Assembly: GCA_934317205.1 (NCBI GenBank)
Contig: CAKREL010000003.1
Coordinates: 1-49,329 of the forward strand
Length of the DNA: 49,329 nucleotides
Direction of reading: 5' to 3'
DNA from: an uncultured Eubacterium sp.
GTDB taxonomy: Bacteria > Bacillota > Clostridia > Lachnospirales > Lachnospiraceae
The translations under genes were made by a program, and so were the position numbers. Positions 40,963 through 49,174 of the stretch are shown piece after piece. How positions within the stretch are numbered: the first letter of the stretch is position 1; every line of letters begins with the position of its first letter. The notes under the pieces are model-generated. The model was not told the DNA's origin and ran no database searches. It worked only from the letters and a program-made list of their open reading frames with translations.

Positions 40963-40987
40963 GGAATCAGCTGTTTTTGCTGATTCC
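40963..40987 (-). terminator. hairpin at the proS stop codon
   Basis: GGAATCAGC (40963-40971) and GCTGATTCC (40979-40987) form a perfect 9-bp stem with a 7-nt loop, starting at the proS stop codon. There is no T-run, so intrinsic termination is uncertain. The central CAGCTGTTTTTGCTG is also found at 21-35. Confidence 0.45.
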
Positions 40988-42426
40988 TAGTATGCTTTAC
41001 CCCAGTATACCAGTTTTTTCGCCGGTTTTCCACAGCATGCACACACGTCAGAAATATGCTCCTGATCATTGAATGGCATACATCTGGATGTAGCACCTGT
41101 CTCCTCTTTGATCTTGTCCTCACATGCGCGGTCTCCACACCACATTGCGCGGATGAATCCCGGTTTATTTTCTACAGCATCACAAAACTCGTCATAGTTG
41201 TGTGCGTCAGAAATATGTGCATCACGATGTGCTTTTGCACGTTCAAACATATCTTTCTGAATTGTTTCCAGTAATTCTGGAACTTTGGTTTCTACTTCAT
41301 CCAGAGATACAACGACTTTTTCACGTGTGTCCCTGCGAACCAGTACACACTGATTATTCTCGATATCTTTCGGTCCTAATTCCACACGGATCGGAATACC
41401 ACGCATCTCCTGCTCAGAGAATTTCCAACCAGGGCTCTTGTCAGAATCATCTAATTTTGCACGGCAGACTTTACCTAAACGCTCCTGAATTTCCTGCGCT
41501 TTCTCCATAACGCCTTCTTTTCTCTGCTGAATTGGAATTACCATAACCTGTGTCGGTGCAATGTGCGGTGGCAGAACCAGTCCGGAATCATCGCCGTGAA
41601 CCATGATGATAGCACCGATCAGACGTGTTGTCATACCCCAGGATGTCTGATGTACATACTGTAATTTATTCTCTTTATCTGTAAACTGAATGCCGAATGC
41701 TTTTGCAAATCCATCACCAAAGTTGTGGCTTGTACCGGACTGCAATGCTTTTCCATCATGCATCAATGCCTCAATGGTGTAAGTTGCCTCTGCTCCTGCA
41801 AATTTTTCTTTCTCTGTCTTCTGTCCGCGGATGACTGGCATAGCAAGTACTTCCTCACAGAAGTCTGCATACAGATTCAGCATCTGTACAGTACGTGCCT
41901 CGGCTTCTTCAGCAGTTGCATGAGCTGTGTGGCCTTCCTGCCATAAAAACTCTCTGGAACGGAGAAACGGACGTGTCTCTTTTTCCCATCTTACAACAGA
42001 ACACCACTGATTATATACTTTCGGCAGATCGCGGTAAGACTGGATATCATTTTTATAAAAATCACAGAATAATGTCTCAGATGTCGGGCGTACACAGAGA
42101 CGCTCCTGCAACGGATTTAATCCACCGTGTGTTACCCATGCAACTTCCGGTGCGAATCCTTCTACATGATCTTTCTCAACATTCAGCAGACTCTCAGGAA
42201 TGAACATTGGCATGTATACATTCTCTACACCTGTCTCTTTAAAACGGCGGTCAAGCTCTTTCTGGATATTCTCCCAGATTGCATAACCTGCCGGTTTAAT
42301 TACCATGCATCCTCTGACGCTGGAATAGTCGGTCAATCCTGCTTTTTTTACCACATCTGTGTACCACTGTGCAAAATCCACATCCATAGATGTAATGGCT
42401 TCTACTAATTTTTTGTCCTTTGCCAT
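40987..42426 (-). CDS. proS: prolyl-tRNA synthetase, archaeal/eukaryotic-like type
   Basis: This 479-residue class II synthetase has the short ProRS form (no editing insertion) used by many clostridia. Motif 2 lies at [29 protein letters not shown], motif 3 at [21 protein letters not shown], and an anticodon-binding domain follows. The C-terminal ProRS-C domain (CMPFNDQ...[18 protein letters not shown]) has cysteines for zinc and the typical terminal tyrosine. It charges tRNA-Pro. Ribosome site AAGGAGA precedes ATG 42426. It is controlled by the T-box leader at 42471-42797. Confidence 0.96.
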
Positions 42427-42470: not shown

Positions 42471-42797
42471 AAAAAAGCCGGAACGCTGATCCCTCATAGG
42501 GACCGGAATTCCGGCGGTACCACCCTGATTATATGCCCTTACGCATATCCACTCAAAAACCGTTAACGCCGGTTCTACGCCATACTCTTCGCACGGGGCT
42601 CAAGGGCCGGTTCCAAATGTTCCAAACAAGGATGTCTCAGCATACATGTCATCATGTACATCCTCTCTCTGTAGATCTTTCCATCTGTACTATTTCCTGT
42701 CACAGCCGATTTCCTATTTTTCACCTTTTTCTTAACAAGAAAGTGTACTATCACACACTCTCGCAACGAAAATCATCAAATGAAAAAACTATAATCA
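42471..42797 (-). ncRNA. T-box riboswitch leader of proS
   Basis: On the minus strand the T-box sequence AGGGTGGTACCGC (42514-42526) is exact. It is followed by a terminator with GCCGGAA/TTCCGGC arms (42477-42483/42509-42515), an inner TCCC/GGGA stem and a run of T (42471-42476). Upstream, AGAGAG and a GCTGAGA segment within a GGATGT/ACATCC stem resemble stem I. Uncharged tRNA should stabilise the antiterminator. I could not place the proline specifier codon with confidence. Confidence 0.93.
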
Positions 42798-42860: not shown

Positions 42861-42889
42861 TTGCGAAGCATAGGGGAATGCACTATTAT
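42861..42889 (+). promoter_or_regulatory. promoter of the acyl-ligase/reductase operon
   Basis: TTGCGA (42861-42866), a 17-bp spacer and TATTAT (42884-42889) on the plus strand, divergent from proS and 60 nt before ATG 42949. The remaining bases show an AGAGGAG ribosome site, unusually about 15 nt from the start. Confidence 0.55.
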
Positions 42890-42948
42890 TAATAAGTAAA
42901 AGTTTCTGTATGTAAGCAGAAAGAACAGAGGAGATAAAAGAATCGATC

Positions 42949-45900
42949 ATGAAAAAAATAACCTCACTCATTGACATTCTTTCCGCGCAGACCGAAAAGT
43001 CTCCGGAACGTGTTATCTACCGTTTTCTGGAATACAAAAACGGCGACTGGGAATCGCAGGATATCACCTTGCGTTCCCTCTATCATAAATCTCTGGAGAT
43101 TGCTTATGCACTCCGAAAAAAGGGACTGCGACCAGGTGATCGGGCAGTCATTTTCAGTATGCAGGATTACGGCACAACCTATGCAATCCTTGGATGCATG
43201 ATGGCAGGTGTTACTTTTACCGTCATTCCACCACCATTGGACGAAGGCAAAATTGCCCGTTTTATCTCTGTATTGAAATCCTGTCAGCCAAAAGCACTGA
43301 TTTCCAATTATGCACTGGAGCAGGAATCTGGTGTCAGTCTCACCGGCCGCCTGATCCGTGAAGCCTTTGCCAGTGTGATTCGGCTGAAACGTATCTACAC
43401 TGACCGCCTGACTCCGTACAAACGAAAGGACGTCATCGTGACAGCTACGGAAAACCGTCTGGTTTACCTGCAATACACTTCCGGTTCTACCAGTGCACCG
43501 CGAGGCGTGCGTGTCACATGGAAAGCACTGATGAAAAATCTGGAGCAATGCCAGGCCTGTTATGATTTTAATCATGGCACCCTCGGCACCTGGGTTCCGT
43601 TTTTCCATAACCTTGGACTGGTTGTTACAATCTGCATGCCGCTCTGTACGACAGATGCCTGTGCATACTTTTTATCCACCATGCAGTTTCTTCAAAATCC
43701 AAAGCTATGGATAAAAATGCTGCATGACTTCAATCTTACCTTAACTGTCGGACCGGGTTCTGCATTTGACGCATGTACCCGTATTTTTACGCTGGAAGAA
43801 GCTGCCAGATATCCACTGACTCAGGTGACCCATTTTATGAATGGTTCGGAATTTATCAGTGCAAAGACAGTTGAAAAATTTTCCAAAATGTTTCAGCTTT
43901 CCCCAAATGCCATGGCACCAGGCTATGGACTGGCGGAAAATGTCTGCCTGGCTACCTTTGCAAGCCAGGACTACCGCACCTTAAAGCTCGATTATGAAGC
44001 TTATCAGAAAAACTGTGCAGTTCTGGTAGCAGAAGAAAAAGAAAACCAACAGGTCAAAGAAATCGTCAGCGTCGGCAAACCGGTCAAAGACCTCACTGTA
44101 GTCATTGCCAATCCGAAGACAAAGAAACCGTATCCGGATCTGCATATTGGTGAAATCTTTATTTCCGGTGACAGTGTGGCCAACGGCTATTGGGGCAATT
44201 TAAAAGAAAATGCGAACTTCCGCATACATCTGGAAGGCTACGAACGCAACTTCTACAAAACCGGCGACCTTGGATTTTTGTACGAAGGTCACCTTTATAT
44301 TACCGGTCGTATCAAGGAAATGCTGATCATCAACGGACACAATATCTTTCCAAGTGATCTGCAAACCCTGATCATGCAGAAAGTCCCTGCTCTGGCTACC
44401 ACTGCTTTCGGATTTTTCTCCACAAATGACGGAGAAAAAGAGCATGTCATTGCTGTAGTAGAATCCAAACCGGAAGAAGATTTCACAAAACGAGTAGGAC
44501 AGATCAACGCTGCTGTATCCGAGCGCTTTGGTTTTTCTTTCTATGATATTATATTTGTACCAAGAGGCGCGATTCCGCGTACCGACAACAATAAGTTGCA
44601 GATGTTGAAAGCAAGGGATCTGTATCAGCAGGGTAAATTACAAATTCTGCACAGCAGCCATGCCTATCGTACCGGCAACAGTGAAGCAACGATCATTGAT
44701 AAATCTATAGACAAAGCGGATGAAATCCTGCTTCAGGTAAAATCCGTATTTGAAAAAGTATTGGACATTGAACAGTATAGCCTTACAGACTCTTTCCTGG
44801 AGCTTGGCGGTGATTCCCTCATGGGATTTGAACTGGTCAGCAAAATTGAAGAGCGTTTTCATGTCAAACTGGATCTGCGCGAGGTGCTTTTAGACTCCTC
44901 CGTCTCCGGTGTGGCAAACTATGTCCGTCGTGTTCTGACTGGTGGAAAAGGCACTTCCAAAGCTGTTGACCTGAAACAAGAATGCCATCTGGATCCATCT
45001 ATTGCTCCGGCAGGTGCATATGACACTGCTCCGCAGGACTGCAGAAATATCCTGCTCACCGGTGCCACAGGATTCCTTGGTGCTCAGCTGATCCGCGCAA
45101 TCCTGACACAGTATCCTAAGAATGGGCTGAACCTGTATTGTCTGGTGCGCGCCGACTCCGAAGAAGCCGGTCTGGAACGCCTTGTCAACAACATGAAGCA
45201 TTATGAATGCTGGGAAGAAGATTATCGTGCCTTTTTGCATCCGGTCATTGGAGACTTATCCACAGAAAAACTGGGGCTTTCCGATGATCTGTGGCAGGAA
45301 CTGGCCAAAAAGATCCAGGTCATCTATCACAATGGAGCTCTGTTGAATTTTATCTTCCCATATGAGTTCCTGAAGGAAACCAATGTTTATGGCACCGTGG
45401 AAACCCTGCGGCTTGCATGCGCCATCAACCCAAAATATTACCATTATATTTCTTCCTACAGTGTCTACGACACTCCGAACAACAAAGGAAAACGGGTATA
45501 CGAAAATGATCCTCTGAATACTGCACATGGTTTCTCGCTTGCTTATTCTGAGACAAAATGGGTCTCTGAGAAACTTGTAGACATTGCCCAAAAACGCGGA
45601 TTGCACACTGTGATCTATCGCCCTGGCGATATCACCGGCGCAGCCAATGGTATCTGGGAAATGGATGATATGGTCAGCCGTATGATCGTTGGAACGATCC
45701 AGATGCAGGCAATCCCACGCACAAGCTACTGTATGCACATGACACCTGTGGATTTTGTCGCAGATGCAATCTGCTGCATCTCCCGCAAACTGGAAGCCAT
45801 GGATCAAGCCTTCAACCTGGTCAATCCAGAACCTGTTCCGGTGAAAAAAGCAATCTCTTATATCCGTGCAAACGGTTATCCGGTGCGCTACATTTCGTTC

Positions 45901-46149
45901 GGTGCATGGAAGAGTAAACTAAAGCAGGCTACTGCATCGGAAAATGCCCTTACCTTACTCGCATGCCTGTTTGAAAGCGGTACTGATGCCAACCCTGGCG
46001 TGCTGCGCCACTTTGTTGGAAAAGATACCATTTATGACTGTACAAAAGCCAACGTACTGTTAAACCAATCCGGAATCAGTTGTCCACCGGTGGATGAGAA
46101 GCTGTTTAGCGCTTATCTGAATTATTTTAAAAAGAATGGATGTATATAA
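42949..46149 (+). CDS. fatty-acyl-AMP ligase/ACP/thioester reductase fusion (A-T-R)
   Basis: The 1066-residue protein has three domains. Adenylation (about 1-560): ATP loop YTSGSTSAPRG (176-186), WVPFFHNLGLV (215-225), YGLAE (326-330), YKTGD (436-440), GRIKEMLIINGHN (453-465), catalytic K549; it resembles fatty-acyl-AMP ligases. Acyl carrier (about 590-662): GGDSL with S623 for phosphopantetheine. Reductase (about 698-1040): Rossmann GATGFLG (705-711), catalytic Y866-SET-K870, like Lys2/carboxylic-acid-reductase R domains. It should activate a carboxylic acid, load it on its carrier and release aldehyde or alcohol with NAD(P)H. There is no condensation domain. A phosphopantetheinyl transferase must come from elsewhere. 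It heads a four-gene operon; the acid is unknown. Confidence 0.9.
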   Translation: MKKITSLIDILSAQTEKSPERVIYRFLEYKNGDWESQDITLRSLYHKSLEIAYALRKKGLRPGDRAVIFSMQDYGTTYAILGCMMAGVTFTVIPPPLDEGKIARFISVLKSCQPKALISNYALEQESGVSLTGRLIREAFASVIRLKRIYTDRLTPYKRKDVIVTATENRLVYLQYTSGSTSAPRGVRVTWKALMKNLEQCQACYDFNHGTLGTWVPFFHNLGLVVTICMPLCTTDACAYFLSTMQFLQNPKLWIKMLHDFNLTLTVGPGSAFDACTRIFTLEEAARYPLTQVTHFMNGSEFISAKTVEKFSKMFQLSPNAMAPGYGLAENVCLATFASQDYRTLKLDYEAYQKNCAVLVAEEKENQQVKEIVSVGKPVKDLTVVIANPKTKKPYPDLHIGEIFISGDSVANGYWGNLKENANFRIHLEGYERNFYKTGDLGFLYEGHLYITGRIKEMLIINGHNIFPSDLQTLIMQKVPALATTAFGFFSTNDGEKEHVIAVVESKPEEDFTKRVGQINAAVSERFGFSFYDIIFVPRGAIPRTDNNKLQMLKARDLYQQGKLQILHSSHAYRTGNSEATIIDKSIDKADEILLQVKSVFEKVLDIEQYSLTDSFLELGGDSLMGFELVSKIEERFHVKLDLREVLLDSSVSGVANYVRRVLTGGKGTSKAVDLKQECHLDPSIAPAGAYDTAPQDCRNILLTGATGFLGAQLIRAILTQYPKNGLNLYCLVRADSEEAGLERLVNNMKHYECWEEDYRAFLHPVIGDLSTEKLGLSDDLWQELAKKIQVIYHNGALLNFIFPYEFLKETNVYGTVETLRLACAINPKYYHYISSYSVYDTPNNKGKRVYENDPLNTAHGFSLAYSETKWVSEKLVDIAQKRGLHTVIYRPGDITGAANGIWEMDDMVSRMIVGTIQMQAIPRTSYCMHMTPVDFVADAICCISRKLEAMDQAFNLVNPEPVPVKKAISYIRANGYPVRYISFGAWKSKLKQATASENALTLLACLFESGTDANPGVLRHFVGKDTIYDCTKANVLLNQSGISCPPVDEKLFSAYLNYFKKNGCI

Positions 46150-46152
46150 CAT

Positions 46153-47070
46153 ATGAAAATCGGAATACCTCGGGCTTTGCTTTATTATCGTTACCACATT
46201 CTCTGGGAAAACTTTTTTCAGGAACTTGGTCATGAAACCATTGCAAGTCCACATACAAACAAAACACTTATGGATGCAGGCAGTCACTATGCCATTGACG
46301 AGAACTGCCTCTCAAGCAAATTATTTTTTGGACATGTCTCTGCCCTGGAGGGAAAATGTGACGTTGTCTTTGTTCCGCGTATCGCAAATTACGGAAAAGA
46401 CGGTGTAATGTGCTCCCGTTTTGAAGCACTGTATGACATGGCTGTCAACACTTTCCGCGGGCATGATATTAACTTTATCACCTGCAACGTGGACCTTCAG
46501 CAGAAATGCCCGGAAGAACAGGCTTATGTGATGCTCGGTGTTTCTCTCGGTGCTTCTGAAAGCCAGGCCAGAAAAGCCTATCAGAACGCATACGCCGCAT
46601 GGAAGGAAGCTCACAAAAAGCATATTCAGGAAGAAGAAGCAAAACTGCATGATGACCGCATCAAAATCCTTGTAGTTGGACACAGCTACAACCTTTATGA
46701 TGAATATATCGGAAAGCCGATCATGAAGGGAATTGAACAGCTGGATGCTGTTCCTATCTGTTCTGATGCCGTAGATTTAAAGCAGGCACAGACGGATTCC
46801 CTGACTATCTGCAAAGCAGTTCCGTGGATCATGAACAGAGAGCTGCTTGGAGCAATTTCCAAATATCACAACGATGTGGATGGTATTATCCTGCTTACTG
46901 CATTTCCGTGCGGACCTGATTCCATGGTCAATGAGATGATCATCCGCCGGATCAAAGACCGCCCGATCCTGAACCTGCTCCTCGACAGCCAGGACGGAAA
47001 CGCTGGTATTGAGACCCGTCTGGAAAGTTTTATTGATATTATCCGTTTCCGAAAGGAGGCACGTCTGTAA
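46153..47070 (+). CDS. DUF2229/HgdB-like component of a 2-hydroxyacyl-CoA dehydratase-type reductase
   Basis: The 305-residue protein starts MKIGIPRALLYYRY. It carries the DUF2229 pattern DENCLSSKLFFGHV (about 38-51), FVPRI, MCSRFEAL and late TAFPCGPDSM with DSQDGNAGIETRLESF. Conserved cysteines C41, C90, C113 and others could bind [4Fe-4S] clusters. In large activase-reductase proteins this module lies between the ATPase and the HgdB-like part; here it is a separate gene. It begins 3 bp after the acyl-ligase gene and its stop overlaps the next start by 1 bp. It likely forms a heterodimer with the following protein. The reaction is inferred only. Confidence 0.82.
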   Translation: MKIGIPRALLYYRYHILWENFFQELGHETIASPHTNKTLMDAGSHYAIDENCLSSKLFFGHVSALEGKCDVVFVPRIANYGKDGVMCSRFEALYDMAVNTFRGHDINFITCNVDLQQKCPEEQAYVMLGVSLGASESQARKAYQNAYAAWKEAHKKHIQEEEAKLHDDRIKILVVGHSYNLYDEYIGKPIMKGIEQLDAVPICSDAVDLKQAQTDSLTICKAVPWIMNRELLGAISKYHNDVDGIILLTAFPCGPDSMVNEMIIRRIKDRPILNLLLDSQDGNAGIETRLESFIDIIRFRKEARL

Positions 47071-48218
47071 TGCCAGAAAAAAAATATAAACTATGTTATC
47101 CGCAACTTGGAAACTATGACATTCCAATCCAGTACTTTGTAAATAACGGTCTGCATCTGGAATATCTGGCTCCACCTGCCATGACAAAACGAACGATTGA
47201 ACTTGGAGCAAAATACAGCCCTGATTTTGTCTGTGCGCCATTCAAATGTATGATGGGCTGTTACATCGAAGCTTTGGAGCAGGGCGCCAACGTTCTGATC
47301 CAGACGGGTGGAACCTGCCGACTGGGCTACTATGGCGAACTTCATGAGCAGATTTTAAAGGATATGGGGTATGACTTTGACATGTTCAACTTAACCCTCT
47401 TCCGCTACAAAAACCTCATTGGCATGCTAAAAGGCATGAAACAGTTTGCCCCAAATGCGACATTACTTCAGATGGCCAAGGCCTTGCCTGCCACCGCCAA
47501 AATGATCACGGTTATTGATAAGGTAGAAGATAACTACCGTCAGAACATGGGATTTGAGATTGAAAAGGGCTCTTATGATAAAGTATACAATCGTTTTCTG
47601 GCACAGCTTCGCAAAGCCAAAGGATTAAGAGATGTCAACCGCATCTACAAGCAGACTATTTCAGACTTTGATGCTATTCCAAAAAACAAACCGGAGCATC
47701 CGCTGCGTGTCGGTGTGGTCGGTGAATATTTCACCATTATGGATCCTTATTCCAATCATGAAATTGAGAAAAAAATTGCGCAGATGGGTGCGGAAGTGCA
47801 TCGCTGGATGAACCTCTCCAACAGTGTACTTCTCTGTCCGGATGAAGGAACTCTGAAGAAATTAAAAGGTTATCTTACCTATGACCTGTATAAATTTCCA
47901 TCTTCCCTCTGGGTCAATATCCAGAAAAAGATTTCCAGCAAATATACAAAATTTGACATGGGAAGTTCCAGTATTTCCACCATCGCCCTGGCAGAACATT
48001 ATGCTGAAAAAGGCTTTGACGGACTGGTTCATGTAAAATCTTTCGGCTGTACACCAGAAATGGATGCCGTTCCGGTATTGCATAACATCAGCTCTGACTA
48101 CAAAATTCCAGTGCTGTACTTAAACTATGATACACAGACCAGTGATACCGGTATTGAAACTCGTCTGGAAGCATTTTATGATATGATCGCCATGAGAAAG
48201 GAAGTAACAAAATCTTGA
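47070..48218 (+). CDS. HgdB/BcrB-like component of a 2-hydroxyacyl-CoA dehydratase-type reductase
   Basis: The 382-residue protein has PDFVCAPFKCMMGCYIEALEQGANVLIQTGGTCRLGYYGE in the first quarter, with four cysteines typical of [4Fe-4S] ligation in the HGD-D family. A late FGCTPEMDAVPVL and DTQTSDTGIETRLEAFYDM block follows. Such subunits hold a low-potential cluster that gives a single electron to a thioester substrate. AAAGGAGG precedes the ATG; the start shares one base with the stop before it, and the end overlaps the activator gene by 4 bp. It shares the final GIETRLE-F motif with its upstream neighbour, so the two are related in fold. No substrate can be named. Confidence 0.85.
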   Translation: MPEKKYKLCYPQLGNYDIPIQYFVNNGLHLEYLAPPAMTKRTIELGAKYSPDFVCAPFKCMMGCYIEALEQGANVLIQTGGTCRLGYYGELHEQILKDMGYDFDMFNLTLFRYKNLIGMLKGMKQFAPNATLLQMAKALPATAKMITVIDKVEDNYRQNMGFEIEKGSYDKVYNRFLAQLRKAKGLRDVNRIYKQTISDFDAIPKNKPEHPLRVGVVGEYFTIMDPYSNHEIEKKIAQMGAEVHRWMNLSNSVLLCPDEGTLKKLKGYLTYDLYKFPSSLWVNIQKKISSKYTKFDMGSSSISTIALAEHYAEKGFDGLVHVKSFGCTPEMDAVPVLHNISSDYKIPVLYLNYDTQTSDTGIETRLEAFYDMIAMRKEVTKS

Positions 48219-49174
48219 AAAAAGCATATTTAGGAATTGACATCGGATCTATCTCCACTAAAGGTGTCATTATCGATGAAGGAAAAAACATCCTCGCCGG
48301 AATCTATCTCTGGACTGAGGGAAATCCGATGGGCGCAGCCAAAAAAGTAATTGCTGCCCTCGGGGAAAAAATTGATCAGAATGAATATAAAGTCGTTGCT
48401 GCCGGAACAACTGGAAGTGCCCGTAAACTGGTCGGTGCCATGTGCAACGCCAGCATTGTAAAAAATGAGATCACCGCTCACGCAGTAGGAACGACAACCC
48501 TGCATCCGGATGTCCGCACCATTCTCGAGATTGGTGGACAGGATTCCAAGATCATCTGCGTGGAAAACGGTGTGGCTGTGGACTATGCTATGAATACTCT
48601 CTGTGCAGCCGGAACCGGTTCATTCCTTTCCAGCCAGGCCCGTCGTCTCGGTGTGGAAGTAGAAGAATTCGGCAAGATTGCCCTTGGAAGCAAGAATCCT
48701 ACTCCAATCGCTGCCCGGTGTACAGTATTTGCAGAATCTGATCTGGTTCATAAAATCCAGATGGGACATAAAAAAGAAGATATCATTGCCGGTTTATGTA
48801 ATGCTGTTGCAAATAACTACTTAAACAATATCGGAAAAGGAAAGAAAATCCTTCCTCCAATCGTATTTCAGGGGGGTGTAAGTAAAAATGAAGGCGTTGT
48901 AAAAGCCTTTGCTGACTCTCTGGGAGAAGATATCATCGTAGATGAGAACGGACATCTGATGGGATGTTACGGTGCTGCGATTCTTGCACTTGGCTGTGGC
49001 ATTGAGAAACCGTTCAGTTTTGATGTGGCAGATATGGAATTTGTAACTCGCGAAGTTGTATGTCCAAACTGTGCAAACCACTGCGAGATCATCTGCGTTT
49101 ACCGCGATGGAGAACTCATTGATTCCTGGGGAAATCGCTGCGAACGTGGCGAGATCAAACAGGGCCAGGATTAG
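48215..49174 (+). CDS. BadF/BadG/HgdC-type ATPase activator (acyl-CoA dehydratase activase)
   Basis: This 319-residue ASKHA-fold ATPase has phosphate loop 1 GIDIGSISTKGVI, EIGGQDSK, and GGVSKNEGVVKAF. The cluster cysteines C130 (NTLCAAGTGSFL) and C169 (ARCTVFAESD) from two subunits hold one [4Fe-4S] cluster in HgdC. It hydrolyses ATP to fire an electron into the HgdB-like partner and is highly oxygen-sensitive. The start is TTG 48215, overlapping the preceding stop (TTGA), with AGGAAG about 10 nt upstream. A C-terminal CPNCANHCEIICVYRDGELIDSWGNRCERG extension adds cysteines. It is the last gene of the operon; a family B hairpin follows. Confidence 0.93.
   Translation: MKKAYLGIDIGSISTKGVIIDEGKNILAGIYLWTEGNPMGAAKKVIAALGEKIDQNEYKVVAAGTTGSARKLVGAMCNASIVKNEITAHAVGTTTLHPDVRTILEIGGQDSKIICVENGVAVDYAMNTLCAAGTGSFLSSQARRLGVEVEEFGKIALGSKNPTPIAARCTVFAESDLVHKIQMGHKKEDIIAGLCNAVANNYLNNIGKGKKILPPIVFQGGVSKNEGVVKAFADSLGEDIIVDENGHLMGCYGAAILALGCGIEKPFSFDVADMEFVTREVVCPNCANHCEIICVYRDGELIDSWGNRCERGEIKQGQD

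Follow-up and report, generated by a model that had tools for sequence, protein, structure and literature searches.

The closest described relatives of the four-gene unit reported here, which lies at one end of a 49,329-bp stretch of an uncultured Eubacterium sp. genome (contig CAKREL010000003.1; hereafter, the window), are the PlsA and Ger systems. PlsA/PlsR is found in Clostridium perfringens, and as one open reading frame (ORF) in Enterococcus, Lactococcus and Bifidobacterium; PlsA is one fused chain with the plan Act1-Act2-Red1-Red2, i.e., activator parts joined to reductase parts (PMC12838417; this and the other papers are cited from excerpts). Ger, a PlsA-like protein of Thermotoga and Desulfatibacillum with the same domains as the unit, makes alkyl ethers, and the two enzymes are indistinguishable by sequence (PMC13274423). 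The unit is a real and conserved, though apparently undescribed, combination of two known enzyme kinds, i.e., a fatty acyl-AMP ligase (FAAL)-like reductase fusion (hereafter, AAR) and a split PlsA-like reductase with its activase (hereafter, D, B and C). No paper naming the AAR-D-B-C gene set was found among open-access full texts, a search outside of which most subscription journals lie. Judging from sequence, we consider it quite possible, and propose tentatively, that the four genes form one unit that converts free fatty acids, via an aldehyde, to ether or vinyl-ether lipids.

ORF calls and Pfam confirmed four coupled plus-strand genes with the domains named in a preliminary description of the window. 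AAR (42949-46149; 1066 amino acids) is a fusion of adenylation, acyl carrier protein (ACP) and thioester reductase domains (AMP-binding, 163 bits; PP-binding, 45 bits; NAD_binding_4, 206 bits), assigned also by NCBIfam and structure matches. D (46153-47070; 305 amino acids) is a DUF2229 subunit (156 bits), B (47070-48218; 382 amino acids) is HgdB-like (HGD-D, 34 bits, in its C-terminal part), and C (48215-49174; 319 amino acids, TTG start) is a BadF/HgdC-type activase (BcrAD_BadFG, 164 bits), all scores being above the Pfam cut-offs. The spacing of 3 bp or less described earlier holds for the 3-bp gap between AAR and D and the 1-bp overlap of D and B, but not for B and C, which overlap by 4 bp. 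The closest genomes to the window are those of Eubacterium ramulus by sequence: B is 96–98% identical to three loci (two of E. ramulus and one from a Lachnospiraceae metagenome-assembled genome, MAG), in which AAR is 91–93% identical. The window thus derives from E. ramulus or from a species close to it.

The reference for likeness to PlsA was the fused PlsA-like protein encoded elsewhere in E. ramulus rather than an experimentally tested enzyme; the fused protein has the published PlsA plan. In hhalign alignments, whose E-values refer to this single target, D maps to Red1 (residues 675-994, E 9e-21), B to Red2 (residues 1013-1404, E 7e-11) and C, including its Cys4 tail, to the second activator domain Act2 (residues 324-644, E 6e-43). 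The predicted cluster cysteines of D (Cys52/87/253) and B (Cys55/83/327) each face a cysteine in the fused protein, as do Cys130/169/283/286/290/309 of C, whereas D Cys69 and C Cys195 do not. The C-terminal Cys283-x2-Cys286-x3-Cys290-x18-Cys309 motif of C is common to the PlsA-like Act2. This one-to-one correspondence bears out the earlier view of the last three genes as a PlsA-like enzyme split into subunits in another order. The unit differs from PlsA in having three separate genes (Red1-Red2-Act) with the AAR gene in front, and identities in local matches are ~21–35%. The joined Act1 and Act2 of PlsA are absent, the single separate activator being best aligned to Act2, and validated Ger likewise has two activation domains in one chain where the unit has one separate activator. 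Because it lacks this two-activator feature, the unit is, on its sequence, described here as PlsA-like and filed as neither PlsA nor Ger.

AlphaFold models of B (pLDDT 82.4) and D (pLDDT 91.6) match the folds of (R)-2-hydroxyisocaproyl-CoA dehydratase, the double-cubane protein and benzoyl-CoA reductase subunits. The modelled fold of both reductase subunits, together with the BadF activase, places the unit in the HAD/BCR/DCCP superfamily. The cluster cysteines are invariant in D (29 rows), kept in 57/58 rows of B (the exception, L102, has a broken frame) and present in 98–100% of 46 rows for the cysteines of C. Given this conservation and the fold matches, D-B is predicted to be a two-cluster heterodimer and C its ATP-driven electron donor. 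A solved-structure search with the fused PlsA-like protein gave activases only. The HadBC-HadI, HgdAB-HgdC and BcrABCD-type systems share with the unit the fold of D and B, the three-cysteine sites and the ATP-driven activase, but the sequence match is very weak (B versus the HadBC beta subunit, E 0.009), and C has its Cys4 tail beyond residues 5-260, the part aligned to solved activases.

These comparisons also bear on a different reading, in which D-B-C would act on a chain thioester-bound to the ACP of AAR (for example, dehydrating a hydroxyacyl-ACP or reducing an unsaturated chain) and the reductase domain would then release a small secreted metabolite, the modified aldehyde or alcohol. 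The nearest solved folds are HAD/BCR enzymes, and the known members act on thioesters. Against this, D belongs to DUF2229, C has the tail found in the PlsA-like protein, and NCBIfam places neither subunit in HadBC/BcrBC (B reaches 18.7 of 700 bits for the HadC model, and D has no match). DUF2229 itself was matched in 4/14 control genomes, namely Thermotoga maritima, Lactococcus lactis, Thermus composti and Deinobacterium chartae. The first two of these speak for the ether-lipid reading: a modified PlsA has been linked to ether lipids in T. maritima (PMC8788747), Ger of the Thermotogota has been validated by expression (PMC13274423), and plsA has been cloned from L. cremoris, kin of L. lactis (PMC12838417). 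The last paper also notes that Escherichia coli BL21(DE3) is free of plasmalogens.

AAR consists of an adenylation (A) domain (residues 13-568, 42985-44652; PF00501 and PF23024), a carrier domain with the pantetheine serine in GGDSL (residues 597-659, 44737-44925; PF00550) and a thioester reductase (R) domain (residues 700-1065, 45046-46143; TIGR01746), all on the plus strand. The A domain has 11 solved-structure matches at E ≤ 1e-45, four of them under the name of fatty acyl-AMP or adenylate ligases; the remaining seven go by other names (acyl-CoA synthase, saframycin synthetase B, polyketide synthase), and we take them to be of FAAL type. Its best full-length NCBIfam adenylation match is a fatty-acid-AMP ligase subfamily, below the curated cut-off, and the stretch from GYGLAE to VGKP, presumably the site of the FAAL-specific insertion, is ~50 residues long, about equal to that in the matched structures. 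The R domain scores 303.9 bits for TIGR01746 (cut-off 213). Among 120 listed matches, less 14 outside 1030–1180 amino acids, the GGDSL carrier serine, the YxxxK pair and the A10 lysine were present in 75/75 AAR proteins of at least 54% identity and in 31/31 more distant ones. The fusion proposed earlier is thus FAAL-like with intact catalytic motifs, and a fatty-acid substrate and an aldehyde or alcohol product are predicted from the sequence. The closest solved structure to the R domain is MxaA, and such domains often release aldehydes or alcohols, which favors the reading with an ACP-bound substrate.

Relatives of AAR at 63% and 56% identity carry the public names 'Linear gramicidin synthase subunit D' and 'non-ribosomal peptide synthetase'. 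These names are probably misleading, and an amino-acid-activating reductase of that kind was set aside in view of the FAAL-like A-domain matches. AAR has the domain order and catalytic residues of FAAL-ACP-thioester reductase proteins and carboxylic acid reductases, from which its subclade differs in being tied to a PlsA-like reductase. ElbD, an ether-lipid enzyme of Myxococcus, likewise joins acyl ligase and ACP to a reductase-like domain (PMC9131029). It has an added acyltransferase domain and an aerobic host, whereas AAR, with no acyltransferase among its seven Pfam matches, is paired with an oxygen-sensitive reductase type. A further reading is that the substrate is aromatic, with aryl acids released by flavonoid or gallate breakdown being activated and reduced by the unit in the manner of benzoyl-CoA reductase. 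The hosts include E. ramulus and E. oxidoreducens, both degraders of plant phenolics, and the fold is BCR-like. That fold, however, is common to many non-aromatic enzymes, the A domain is FAAL-like, and no aromatic-degradation family was found among the eight neighbor clusters scanned, so we regard an aromatic substrate as very improbable.

To determine whether the four genes are generally kept together, a check set beforehand, we scanned one genome per species carrying the B clade and compared 46 loci, of which 29 (L001-L029; B identity 62–98%) belong to the close clade. At 27 of these 29 loci the gene immediately before D, on its strand, is AAR, separated by 1–99 bp or overlapping by 4 bp, and because the order recurs in this way, the arrangement is not one of chance. 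At one of the two other loci (L015) a contig end cuts inside D. At the second (L027), D-B-C does not adjoin AAR; the AAR of this genome (55% identity) stops 112 bp from a contig end and has the synteny seen in E. oxidoreducens (L022). Compared with the downstream block of E. oxidoreducens, D-B-C of the same genome (G1039; loci L119 and L117) has the inverse orientation, and both it and AAR are close to contig ends, so by sequence the arrangement is either a true inversion or a misassembly. AAR is cut by a contig end or split in frame in some MAGs (L008, L010, L016, L017, L018 and L026), and B and C form a single 730-amino-acid open frame in one (L005:4553-6745), which is either a fusion or a sequence error.

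No further neighbor cluster occurs in more than 7/29 loci of the clade. The most common neighbor is a pair of CoA-transferase subunit genes (PF01144) near C, in either orientation, in 7/29 loci (for example, L004:13336-14734), and a larger cluster with further constant genes was rejected on this count. The pair also speaks for an ACP-bound substrate. Neighbors such as scpA/scpB, DUF6465 and a carbohydrate-kinase-like gene reflect local synteny.

A maximum-likelihood tree built from 57 B rows places the 30 AAR-linked ones (window included) behind one branch with support of 100/99 and a single label change. The AAR-linked B clade has, on this tree, one origin. Pairwise distances of AAR correlate with those of D, B and C (Spearman 0.88, 0.79 and 0.87, respectively; 210 pairs from the 21 AAR rows that remained after proteins covering <90% of the query were left out), which at the sequence level shows joint inheritance rather than contact. 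The clade is also marked by an insertion of 24 residues in B (residues 266-289; 47865-47936, plus strand), seen in the row alignment in AAR-linked members only. The segment at positions 255-296 is 42 residues long in 30/30 AAR-linked rows and 18–27 residues in 28/28 others (L102, left out of the tree, is counted here), and F276, P277 and W281 of the insertion are invariant in 25 rows. The insertion may serve for docking or as a membrane element, a suggestion confounded with the single origin; as a docking site for the ACP, it could serve the reading in which D-B-C acts on an ACP-bound chain.

Outside the clade, D-B-C is widespread. In 17/46 loci (L030-L046) D-B-C occurs with no AAR within the stretch compared. 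B relatives were found in 19/397 genomes of the family, eight belonging to the close clade (66–98% identity) and 11 having 36–48% identity; 10 of the latter were inspected, and all had D-B-C without an adjoining AAR. The basic substrate of D-B-C is therefore independent of AAR, which counts against an ACP-bound chain as that substrate. AAR relatives are rare, with matches in 3/295 sampled genomes of the order, 2/391 of the class and 2/398 of the phylum, the E. ramulus genome being counted (E cut-offs of 1e-60, 1e-120 and 1e-150, respectively; at most two candidates were scored per genome, so that misses are possible). One of the three order-level matches (G153) spans residues 14-659 alone at 31% identity. 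The joining to AAR is thus specific, whereas the split enzyme itself is found in many other genomes and is no peculiarity of this arrangement.

This distribution raises the alternative that one transcript serves two functions, AAR supplying a fatty aldehyde or alcohol to some other process while D-B-C does a general, separate job. AAR-like proteins with 37–44% identity were seen in three contexts, in unrelated settings with no D-B-C beside them, and among 22 genomes with a distant B relative or a D-B-C away from AAR, 21 have no AAR at E ≤ 1e-40 (the L027 genome does). The near-constant adjacency, single origin, matched rates and clade-specific insertion in B speak against such independence, and we judge it unlikely. 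One clostridial genome (G357; L118:6324-9355) combines an AAR relative (39% identity) with two PlsA-like proteins of the fused kind and, separately, D-B-C (B identity 30%), on three contigs or far apart.

D-B-C genes in the Dehalococcoidia, the class of the L044 genome, have a different partner. B relatives were detected in 26/119 sampled genomes of the class, and in three of the 46 loci (L044-L046; B identity to the window's B, 28–33%) C overlaps plsX by 4 bp. The L044 plsX scores 320.8 bits for TIGR00182 (cut-off 243.4), and an assignment of this PF02504 neighbor to betaine/glycine reductase was rejected, as the reductase complex C model gave 26.4 bits. Among loci with sequence past C, plsX directly follows C in 10/14 with separate D, B and C (present in L044, L045, L046, L151, L152, L153, L155, L158, L159 and L161; absent from L156, L157, L160 and L162). 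Left out of this count were loci in which C is truncated or does not appear (L122, L154, L163, L165, L166, L167, L168 and L174) and loci with B only (L171, L173, L175, L176 and L178). Genes for thioredoxin, a protein of ~109 amino acids and thioredoxin reductase lie downstream of plsX in several loci. From their gene content, the D-B-C-plsX operons point to acyl-lipid chemistry, which favors the lipid role suggested in the preliminary description. D and B are joined in one ORF of ~700–740 amino acids at six loci (L164, L167-L170 and L172); plsX was found at 0/4 of the fused loci with C in the stretch. These natural fusions are, by sequence, possible intermediates linking the split form with the PlsA-like one in which all parts are fused. 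Tandem B genes occur inside D-B-C operons of the class at L046:8946-11092 and L151:5934-8115.

In the favored ether-lipid reading, the steps predicted by homology are that the A domain would convert a free fatty acid to acyl-AMP and load it on the ACP, the R domain, using NAD(P)H, would set the chain free as a fatty aldehyde or alcohol, the D-B heterodimer would hold one [4Fe-4S] cluster per subunit, and a dimer of C would inject a low-potential electron driven by ATP. D-B may then act at the carbonyl carbon of the acyl group, in a glycerolipid or in a hemiacetal formed from the aldehyde; loss of water would give a vinyl ether, and an alkyl ether would result if more electrons were supplied. 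On this view the cell would have, next to its fused PlsA-like enzyme, a PlsA/Ger-like system for ether lipids that provides its own activated or reduced chains. Counting for this reading are the alignments and matched cysteines of D, B and C with the fused protein, the FAAL-like A domain, the near-constant adjacency of AAR and D with its single origin, matched rates and B insertion, the lack of any other constant neighbor, and plsX behind C in the Dehalococcoidia. According to a review, bacterial plasmalogens are made using long-chain aldehydes, not alcohols (PMC9702350). An aldehyde-making partner fits that report but is no proof. A narrower, doubtful version is an aldehyde-first anaerobic plasmalogen route, in which the AAR aldehyde would form a hemiacetal with a (lyso)glycerolipid and D-B-C would dehydrate it to the vinyl ether, water being removed with one recycled electron as in 2-hydroxyacyl-CoA dehydratases. 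If true, this route would run beside the ester-reducing PlsA and would explain the preference for aldehydes over alcohols.

Several observations weigh against the ether-lipid reading. A fused PlsA/Ger-like protein (1412–1435 amino acids) is already present in 10/10 cassette genomes examined, including E. ramulus G001 (G001-G005 and G1039 are the genomes of L003, L001, L022, L009, L013 and L027; G692, G957, G988 and G883 were assigned to L020, L019, L023 and L029, with B at the same contig coordinates). The unit is therefore no simple PlsA replacement, and the idea that it stands in for a missing PlsA was rejected. No acyltransferase or lipid enzyme lies within the cassette, PlsA does not need an aldehyde because it reduces an ester, and no lipid data for E. 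ramulus were found in a single literature search judged by titles. The CoA-transferase pair near C fits a CoA- or thioester-linked acid better, AAR-like proteins occur in settings of their own, and D-B-C is common without AAR. The plsX link comes from distant relatives that lack AAR, and plsX is missing from 4/14 unfused and 4/4 D-B-fused loci; DUF2229 in T. composti and D. chartae extends the family beyond known ether-lipid anaerobes. The B insertion and the rate match track one clade, so they are not independent tests. Given the fused protein, the missing acyltransferase, the CoA-transferase genes and the D-B-C loci without AAR, we therefore go no further than a tentative preference for ether lipids and rate action on an ACP-bound chain as rather unlikely, though to be taken seriously.

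The unit gives a hint of a further, as yet undescribed route to ether lipids. Screened Bacillota contain extra PlsA homologs without an activation domain, the role of which is described as unclear (PMC13274423); D and B, with their separate activase gene, may be such homologs. The coupling to a fatty-acid-activating reductase in the gut clade, and often to plsX in the Dehalococcoidia, could offer entry points to the origin of anaerobic ether lipids and likewise to lipids made by human gut bacteria.

Examples of the fused PlsA-like protein (~1420 amino acids) are L066:7407-11663 and L071:6764-11023, and in several genomes it lies near a gene that we take to be glutaminyl-tRNA-synthetase-like. 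Upstream of the unit, the start given in the preliminary description (42861) is 88 bp 5' of the first ATG and coincides with a weak promoter-like match; a scan of the window found 14 promoter-like sites versus 11.1 ± 3.5 in shuffles, which is no evidence for a promoter. The terminator scan of the window was likewise at shuffle level, and an Rfam search at gathering scores gave no match. Just below the gathering score of 93, a T-box leader (RF00230, 88.2 bits, E 7.7e-20) was detected on the minus strand at 42495-42712. It stands before an aminoacyl-tRNA synthetase gene (40987-42426), which presumably encodes a prolyl-tRNA synthetase.

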